Part shown: piece after piece, positions 21,770 through 23,418 of the stretch
Layout of the letters: the number at the start of each line of letters is the position of its first letter
How positions within the stretch are numbered: position 1 is the first letter of the stretch
DNA from: an uncultured Clostridia bacterium
GTDB lineage: Bacteria > Bacillota > Clostridia > Christensenellales > UBA1242
NCBI GenBank assembly: GCA_945921465.1
Contig: CAMEKS010000010.1
Coordinates: forward strand, 1-34,640
DNA: 34,640 bases
Direction: 5' to 3'
Position numbers and translations under genes: made by a program
Notes under the pieces: model-generated
The model's input: only the letters and a program-made list of their open reading frames with translations
Databases searched by the model: none
Told to the model about the DNA's origin: nothing

Positions 21770-22198
21770 TTATTCGGTTACAGTAATGCCCATACTCTTG
21801 CAAGAACCCTCGATCATACTCATAGCACTCTCGATGCTGCTTGCATTTAAGTCTGGCATTTTAGTTTCAGCAATTTTCTTGATTTGTGCCTTAGTGATAG
21901 TAGCAACTTTGTTCTTTCTAGGGTTAGCAGAACCGCTTTCGATACCTAACTCTTTCTTGATCAAAACTGCTGCTGGTGGAGTCTTAAGCACAAAAGTAAA
22001 ACTTCTGTCGGCATAGATAGTAATAACAACTGGAATTGTCAAACCTGCTTGAGCTGCAGTTTTCTCATTGAACTCCTTTGTGAATGCTGGAATGTTAATT
22101 CCGTGAGGTCCCAACATAGATCCTACTGGAGGTGCTGGGGTTGCTTTACCTGCTGGTAATTGTAGTTTTACTATTGCATTAACTTTCTTATCTGCCAT
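21770..22198 (-). CDS. rplK: 50S ribosomal protein L11
   Basis: [44 protein letters not shown]...; start at 22198 after GGAGGAG. Confidence 0.97.
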
Positions 22199-22292
22199 AG
22201 TTTTCTCCTCCTGCCAATTTAGTGGCAATTTGTGGTATAAACAAAATGCATTACAATAGATTTACATTTCTCCCACTATTTTGCTATTTTTA

Positions 22293-22310
22293 CAGAGGAA
22301 TTATCCTCTG
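22293..22310. repeat. Short perfect hairpin beside the cloverleaf element
   Basis: CAGAGGA (22293-22299) ATTA TCCTCTG (22304-22310). Confidence 0.6.
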
Positions 22311-22332: not shown

Positions 22333-22432
22333 GGCGGCGAGCCTGCCGGCACGCATAGCGTGCGTGGCTGCGTCCCATCAAATTATGGGACGGGCAGCGT
22401 GTCAGCCCGCTGACACGCTTGTGCTCGCCGCC
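22333..22432. repeat. GC-rich cloverleaf-like (four-way junction) palindromic element between nusG and rplK
   Basis: Outer stem GGCGGCGAGC (22333-22342) / GCTCGCCGCC (22423-22432). Inner hairpins GCACGC-ATA-GCGTGC (22349-22363), CGTCCCAT-CAAATT-ATGGGACG (22371-22392) and GCGTGTCAGC-CC-GCTGACACGC (22397-22418). Strikingly GC-rich in an AT-rich context. Confidence 0.7.
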
Positions 22433-22560: not shown

Positions 22561-22641
22561 GCCAAGTGCTTAGATTTGACACATAATTCGCCCAATATCC
22601 AAATCTATCCACTTGGCTATCATTCCCAAAATATATTGGGC
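22561..22641 (-). ncRNA. Candidate structured RNA segment (H-type pseudoknot or two mutually exclusive hairpins) just 3' of nusG
   Basis: Stem A GCCAAGTGctTAGATTTG (22561-22578) / CAAATCTAtcCACTTGGC (22600-22617), 16/18 paired. Stem B GCCCAATAT (22590-22598, in the loop of A) / ATATTGGGC (22633-22641), 9 bp. Confidence 0.45.
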
Positions 22642-22653
22642 AAATCAAATTAA

Positions 22654-23418
22654 TTATTTAACTTCTTTTACTTGATCTAGCGATACATCTACTGGTGTCT
22701 CTCTGCCAAACATCTCTACTATCACACGACACTTGTTAGTCTTGTCATCAATAGACATTACTTTGCCAACAAAACCTGCCAATGCACCATCTAATATCTC
22801 TACCGTATCCCCTACATTAAGATTGATATTGACTACTGCCACTTTCTCTAGATGCATTTTTCTAATTTCCTCTTCGGTCAAATGCAATGGTCTACCTTTT
22901 GGTCCAACAAAGCCAGTTATGCCACGTGTTCGAGTTACAGCATGCCAAATATCGTCACCATAGTTCATCTTGACCAAAATATATCCTGGCATTAATTTAC
23001 GTGTTACCAATTTGCGTTTACCATCTTTCTCCTCTACAACATCTTCCATAGGGATAACGATGTCAAATATACGAAGATTAAGATTGTATTTTGCCCTAAC
23101 TATCTCTAAGTTTTCTTTGGCAACATTTTCATAACCAGAGAATGTGTGCAGAACATACCATTTTGCATCTTTCTTGGCTTCTTCTATAGCCTTCTCTTCT
23201 TCGGTTAATTCTCTTGACTCTTCGGTAGTTTCGGCAGTTTTGCTCTCCGATTCGGCCTCGTTGTTATCGATACTAGCAGTAGTCACTTCAGCCTCTGTAG
23301 TAGGCTCTTCCGCACTCTCATTTATGGCCGTATTTGGGGCAACTTCGTTTGCTTCGCTAGTTAGAATATCTTCTTTGTTCTCTTCTATCATAAATTCTCT
23401 TTTAGTGGCTGCAAGCAT
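22654..23418 (-). CDS. nusG: Transcription termination/antitermination factor NusG with acidic N-terminal extension
   Basis: KWYVLHTFSGYENVAKENLE...RKLMPGYILVKM...VTRTRGITGFVG...KOW region VGDTVEILDGALAGFVGKV. Start either 23418 or 23391 (MIEENKED). Confidence 0.94.
   Translation of the reverse strand: MLAATKREFMIEENKEDILTSEANEVAPNTAINESAEEPTTEAEVTTASIDNNEAESESKTAETTEESRELTEEEKAIEEAKKDAKWYVLHTFSGYENVAKENLEIVRAKYNLNLRIFDIVIPMEDVVEEKDGKRKLVTRKLMPGYILVKMNYGDDIWHAVTRTRGITGFVGPKGRPLHLTEEEIRKMHLEKVAVVNINLNVGDTVEILDGALAGFVGKVMSIDDKTNKCRVIVEMFGRETPVDVSLDQVKEVK

Follow-up and report, generated by a model that had tools for sequence, protein, structure and literature searches.

A GC-rich cloverleaf in the nusG–rplK spacer of an uncultured Clostridia bacterium, likened by topology to dispersed palindromic elements

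The spacer between nusG and rplK in this uncultured Clostridia bacterium contains a GC-rich block that folds as a closed cloverleaf, and cloverleaves of the same architecture, with topology and not sequence in common, are scattered through its own genome and those of its relatives. With moderate confidence, we read the block as an inserted palindromic element of the dispersed type, REP/MITE-like in kind, which is defined by its topology rather than its sequence. The property conserved among such elements would be a closing stem of ~7–12 bp around three tight, near-perfect hairpins. In the cloverleaf elements of these genomes the fold is kept by covariation while the sequence changes. Below, "the window" refers to the whole 34,640-nt stretch of DNA that was analyzed.

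The element and its surroundings in the spacer

The element is 100 bp in length and its GC content is 69%, in comparison to 34.6% (~35%) for the whole window. Among all 100-nt pieces of the window it ranked first for both GC content and folding strength, which bears out the composition contrast described in an earlier note on this DNA. The fold of either strand is a closed four-way junction in which the outer stem surrounds hairpins of 6 + 3, 8, and 10 pairs. The coordinates and pairings given in the earlier note (10-bp outer stem, three hairpins) were found to be exact, with 37 of 37 pairs being Watson-Crick, and the alternative pairing it described, GCTGC (22367–22371) with GCAGC (22394–22398), is present and able to extend hairpin 2. 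Hairpin 1 has three further pairs, GCC/GGC, below its internal loop. Folding z-scores were −6.1 on the plus strand and −5.4 on the minus strand, with none of 200 shuffles being equally stable, and a closed cloverleaf was obtained in 0 of 500 shuffles of the spacer and 0 of 2,000 shuffles of the element. The fold is not a chance product.

Table 1. Features of the nusG–rplK spacer and of the cloverleaf element within it (positions in the window).
Feature	Position	Strand	Description
nusG	22654..23418	-	Gene on the upstream side of the spacer; an ORF, with 138 homologous stretches among GTDB contigs
rplK	21770..22195	-	Downstream gene of the spacer; ORF and homology, boundaries approximate
rplK leader GTGGGAG...ACCACA	22231..22276	-	Like an L1-binding leader; conserved upstream of rplK
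Small hairpin CAGAGGA-ATTA-TCCTCTG	22293..22310		Between the element and the rplK leader
Cloverleaf element	22333..22432	-	Closed four-way junction, 69% GC, 37 Watson-Crick pairs
Outer stem, arm GGCGGCGAGC	22333..22342		Pairs with 22423–22432; perfect 10-bp inverted repeat
Outer stem, arm GCTCGCCGCC	22423..22432		Perfect 10-bp inverted repeat
Hairpin 1, GCC / GCACGC-ATA-GCGTGC / GGC	22345..22368		6 + 3 pairs with an internal loop
Hairpin 2, CGTCCCAT-CAAATT-ATGGGACG	22371..22392		8 pairs
Hairpin 3, AGCGTGTCAG-CCCG-CTGACACGCT	22396..22419		10 pairs

The genome assembly (G000) is a draft of 1.165 Mb in 60 contigs that is 94.75% complete, and in a draft an assembly artefact might be suspected. That the element is such an artefact, or a chance fold, is scarcely credible, however, as it lies within its contig with intact genes on either side, shuffles never gave the fold, and independently assembled genomes show the same architecture at the same place.

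The transcribed strand of the element is the minus strand, because nusG and rplK are both encoded on it. No tRNA or tmRNA was found in the window by ARAGORN, and no match at gathering score was found in the window with Rfam, whose sub-threshold matches over the element were at chance level. A terminator scan found no terminator at the element, and there is no T-run after it on the mRNA strand; therefore it is not an ordinary terminator. It is very improbable that the operon has an intrinsic terminator or attenuator in this element. Such a role would fit very stable intergenic hairpins and the T-run that follows the cloverleaf in two relatives (L142 and L156, see below), but is countered here by the negative scan and the missing T-run.

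The rplK leader sits between the element and rplK and is conserved in almost all of the relatives examined, whether or not they have the element. We take the GTGGGAG...ACCACA leader to have an L1 role. At the position of the small hairpin in Table 1, three related loci (L033, L034, and L035) have a hairpin of different sequence. Separately, just after nusG, window positions 22561–22641 (minus strand) contain complementary pieces ordered a-b-c-a'-c'-b', namely GCCCAATAT, GCCAAGTG, AGATTTG, ATATTGGGC, CAAATCT, and CACTTGGC, which can be drawn as an H-type pseudoknot or as two alternative hairpins. A matching order, in different letters, is readable in L033, L034, and L035, and based on this shared order the region may be a conserved RNA of the genus.

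Searches for the element by sequence

By sequence, the element is present in one copy in its own genome. In BLAST searches of 396 genomes of the order, it was its own sole match at E ≤ 0.001, and a covariance model built on the element alone found a convincing match only to itself in 88 genomes. The count of copies by BLAST that the earlier note had proposed gave one copy and no detectable sequence relative in the own genome and relatives. The BLAST matches in relatives were short and mostly in GC-rich DNA; the dozen best, viewed in context, had no cloverleaf and were rejected.

We also think it improbable that the element came alone by horizontal transfer, as a structured piece of, for example, a plasmid or phage (such as an origin or attachment site) that is unrelated to the dispersed cloverleaves. 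Such an origin would account for a GC content far above that of the genome, for the lack of sequence relatives in the own genome, and for the result of a scan of the assembly for very GC-rich 24-mers, which found two islands only, the element and one stretch at a contig end. However, BLAST against 50,697 phage and 72,556 plasmid records found no match beyond ~24–32 nt, which is chance level. A pattern search of viral contigs with the outer stem, which demanded only the 20 stem letters, gave 44 matches; judged collectively, these varied in spacing and were read as chance in GC-rich DNA.

Cloverleaves elsewhere in these genomes

In a fold scan over 776 kb of its total 1,165 kb, the own genome was found to contain a family of sequence-related cloverleaves, R2, each with a closing stem and three tight hairpins. 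A covariance model of R2 (79 positions) had matches at 31 distinct places of the own genome and at six in the sister species G003, and none in 38 other relatives. The places were intergenic in 29 of the 30 examined in these two genomes, and most copies in the own genome have a GC content of 44–54%, versus 69% in the window element. Among 11 copies, compensatory changes were observed in 10 of the 31 pairs, a level reached by none of 500 shuffles and not by slid versions. In 28 distinct rows of an alignment that was itself fitted to the model, at least two Watson-Crick types were present in 20 of 31 pairs. G-U cells numbered 29 and C-A cells 20; as there is no clear preference of strand, selection at the RNA level is not indicated, and the fold may be read either as DNA or as RNA.

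In the R2 copies of G003, AATCTATGTGT...ACACATAGATT is retained as the closing stem and ACTGATGTTTATTC as the flank, but hairpin 1 has been swapped, GTACTGTTGTAAAACAGTAC being present instead of CAGACGACGCTAGTCGGCTG, and is still paired. Some of these copies have more than one hairpin swapped, and the copy in L320 differs in all three.

The window element shares with R2 the closed stem and three tight hairpins. Against the R2 covariance model with filters off it scored at best 11 bits, over hairpin 3 only. We therefore file it as the same kind as R2, as the topology agrees, but not as a member of R2, as the sequence does not. The lack of any sequence link from the window element to R2 or to another copy weighs against reading it as a dispersed element, as do its occurrence in one copy and its higher GC content than most R2 copies of this genome.

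R2 cloverleaves were also observed to form BIME-like mosaics with other structured modules, at L294:15350–15640 and ~30 other places in the own genome, with CCTTGAGATAATATGACGAAGGAAAC before the cloverleaf and ATAATATCGGAAGTTAGAGACAAACG...ACTGATGTTAATTC before or after it. The module upstream is able to pair with the 5' arm of the cloverleaf. At L297:1654–1695 in the same genome, a perfect long hairpin consists of the 3' half of one R2 cloverleaf and its reverse complement, and looks as though it was copied by snap-back.

Additional cloverleaves were found with a topology script that ignored sequence and required an outer stem of at least seven pairs around three hairpins of at least six pairs each. 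Outside the nusG–rplK spacer, these were in G472 (L253:15091, L267:13846, and L267:17108), G471 (L275:2029 and L279:3026), G470 (L289:1493), and the own genome (L301:4399, just 3' of typA). AT-only calls in very AT-rich DNA were set aside as likely low-complexity sequence, and on five dinucleotide shuffles the script found no cloverleaf with GC ≥0.25. In G472, GGCGTCTT/AAGACGCC is common to two copies, between which two of the three hairpins differ.

Two further structures with apparent links to tRNA genes were noted. One, at L300:3185–3305 in the own genome, is a four-way junction (z −7.0) in which the first hairpin arm and the 5' arm of the closing stem resemble a tRNA gene's 3' end (CACGGGTTCGACTCCCGTC). 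The other, at L031:1100–1640 in G070, consists of repeated GC-rich blocks after an apparent tRNA gene, and in these blocks the tRNA 3' end recurs in both inverted and direct orientation.

The same spacer in relatives

A NusG scan of GTDB contigs provided 80 loci. In the three species nearest to that of the window, with NusG 84–88% identical, the spacer is 196–225 nt, AT-rich, and without the element, in comparison to 455 nt here. As to the empty site that the earlier note proposed to look for in relatives, the block is absent from these species, but the flanks are too diverged for the exact junction to be located.

Most examined spacers have no cloverleaf. At three of the 80 loci, closed cloverleaves of quite different sequence were found in the spacer, namely those of L142 (sheep colon), L156 (goat colon), and L154, and so the holders, including the window species, are four species in three lineages. 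Each of these three cloverleaves is single copy by sequence in its own genome, and other cloverleaves are present elsewhere in these genomes. With NusG 93% identical, L142 and L156 are closely related, and over the three stems that can be aligned they differ by seven compensatory changes and no one-sided change; their first hairpins are unalignable, yet paired in both. In both, the cloverleaf takes the place of the usual hairpin, ~20 nt before the leader, and a T-run lies 3' of it.

These spacers could also be explained if the cloverleaf were a fast-evolving, cis-acting RNA of the nusG–rplK mRNA, with a role in processing, stability, or decoupling, that took the place of the simple hairpin found in most relatives just upstream of the rplK leader. 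We consider this unlikely, despite its being suggestive of a local role that the same spacer holds a cloverleaf in four species of three lineages, that each is single copy by sequence, and that L142 and L156 replace the usual hairpin with purely compensatory differences. This is because most spacers, those of the nearest species included, have no cloverleaf, and the same architecture is present at many unrelated intergenic sites; given that dispersal, a few matches in one spacer across ~100 genomes are, by an informal estimate, roughly what is expected. The absence of a clear strand preference in R2 also does not point to selection on RNA.

The earlier note had named a single-copy, unconserved element with no compensatory change in close relatives as the outcome that would count against it. 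The window element does occur only once and is missing from the closest species, yet compensatory change is strong in L142/L156 and in R2. Its proposal of a dispersed, REP/MITE-like palindrome is upheld for the architecture, with ~30 scattered R2 copies and cloverleaves of unrelated sequence in relatives, but not for the sequence, by which the element is single copy and outside R2.

Other structures were seen in this operon. In G010 (L053/L129), the nusG–rplK spacer of 472 nt starts with AACTTTCATAA...TTATGAAAGTT, which form an 11-bp inverted repeat enclosing imperfect hairpins. Directly 3' of rplA, AT-rich closed three-hairpin structures with terminator-like T-runs are present at L120:3462–3551, L123:3470–3567, and L133:3328–3398, the letters being different in each.

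Insertion, possible mobility and significance

We infer that the element was inserted into the spacer, because the nearest species are without the block and like elements are dispersed; the mobility of the window element is likewise inferred. The only direct repeat flanking it is ATATGG, an offset 6-mer with a chance expectation of ~18%. A Y1/REP transposase (PF01797) was not found in G000 at its 94.75% completeness; PF01797 was found in the same-genus species G001 and G007.

In the reading of an inserted, dispersed-type element, the window copy would belong to the same class as the other cloverleaves and would have arrived in the nusG–rplK spacer, upstream of the rplK leader, after the split from the nearest known relatives. 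By analogy with the way REP or IS200/IS605-like ends are recognized, its probable mode of movement was in trans, in the form of a folded single strand. At present it would be transcribed passively along with nusG and rplK, forming a very stable cloverleaf in their mRNA, where it could act as a barrier affecting stability or processing. More tentatively, and with some doubt, these gut Clostridia may have a dispersed class held together by topology only, in which the closing stem and hairpins are rewritten or exchanged but still paired, either by an unknown enzyme that recognizes the junction or by a hairpin-copying process that remakes the arms, with the window element being a single-copy representative in a core operon.

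The window element appears to be one of many scattered shape-keeping elements in these bacteria. Keeping a cloverleaf shape while the letters change is unusual for DNA repeats, and since sequence is the basis on which repeats of bacteria are found and classified, elements defined by fold only would escape such searches. If the fold alone is kept, it must be asked what reads it: a single-stranded-DNA transposase, a repair process, or selection at the RNA level. Because sister species have exchanged hairpins while the closing stem stayed fixed, this question can be tested directly.

Comparison with known kinds of element

R2 is like the window element in its closing stem, three tight hairpins, and intergenic location, and is covarying, but it differs in having no detectable sequence relation to it, a lower GC content, and >20 similar copies. 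Mobile GC-rich palindromes in AT-rich genomes are also known from mitochondria (yeast GC clusters, double-hairpin elements, and sponge RHEs, as partly described in PMC4478555 and PMC2800124); these are organellar, and the likeness drawn here is in the GC-rich, palindromic hairpins. Titles and abstracts of the open-access literature gave no comparable bacterial cloverleaf MITE or REP, which is weak evidence.

REPs measure 20–40 bp, carry a GTAG or CGTC tag at their foot, and are alike in sequence within a family (PMC3733652). The window element resembles REPs and BIMEs in being short, palindromic, and probably transcribed, and in the mostly intergenic location of such elements, and R2 copies, though not the window element, are BIME-like in their mosaics with other modules. 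In contrast to REPs, the window element is a 100-bp four-way junction with no tagged foot hairpin, is single copy in its genome, and has no Y1 transposase found alongside it in G000. MITEs are typically AT-rich, with terminal repeats (23–29 bp in QMITE2) and flanking direct repeats (PMC10969869). With MITEs (e.g., QMITE2, Correia, and RU/ERIC), the window element shares terminal inverted repeats, an intergenic location, a very stable folded transcript, and a lack of coding capacity, but it has 10-bp arms, 69% GC, and no clear duplication, and cloverleaf copies have topology, not sequence, in common. Among known elements, REPs/BIMEs and MITEs are the nearest in kind.
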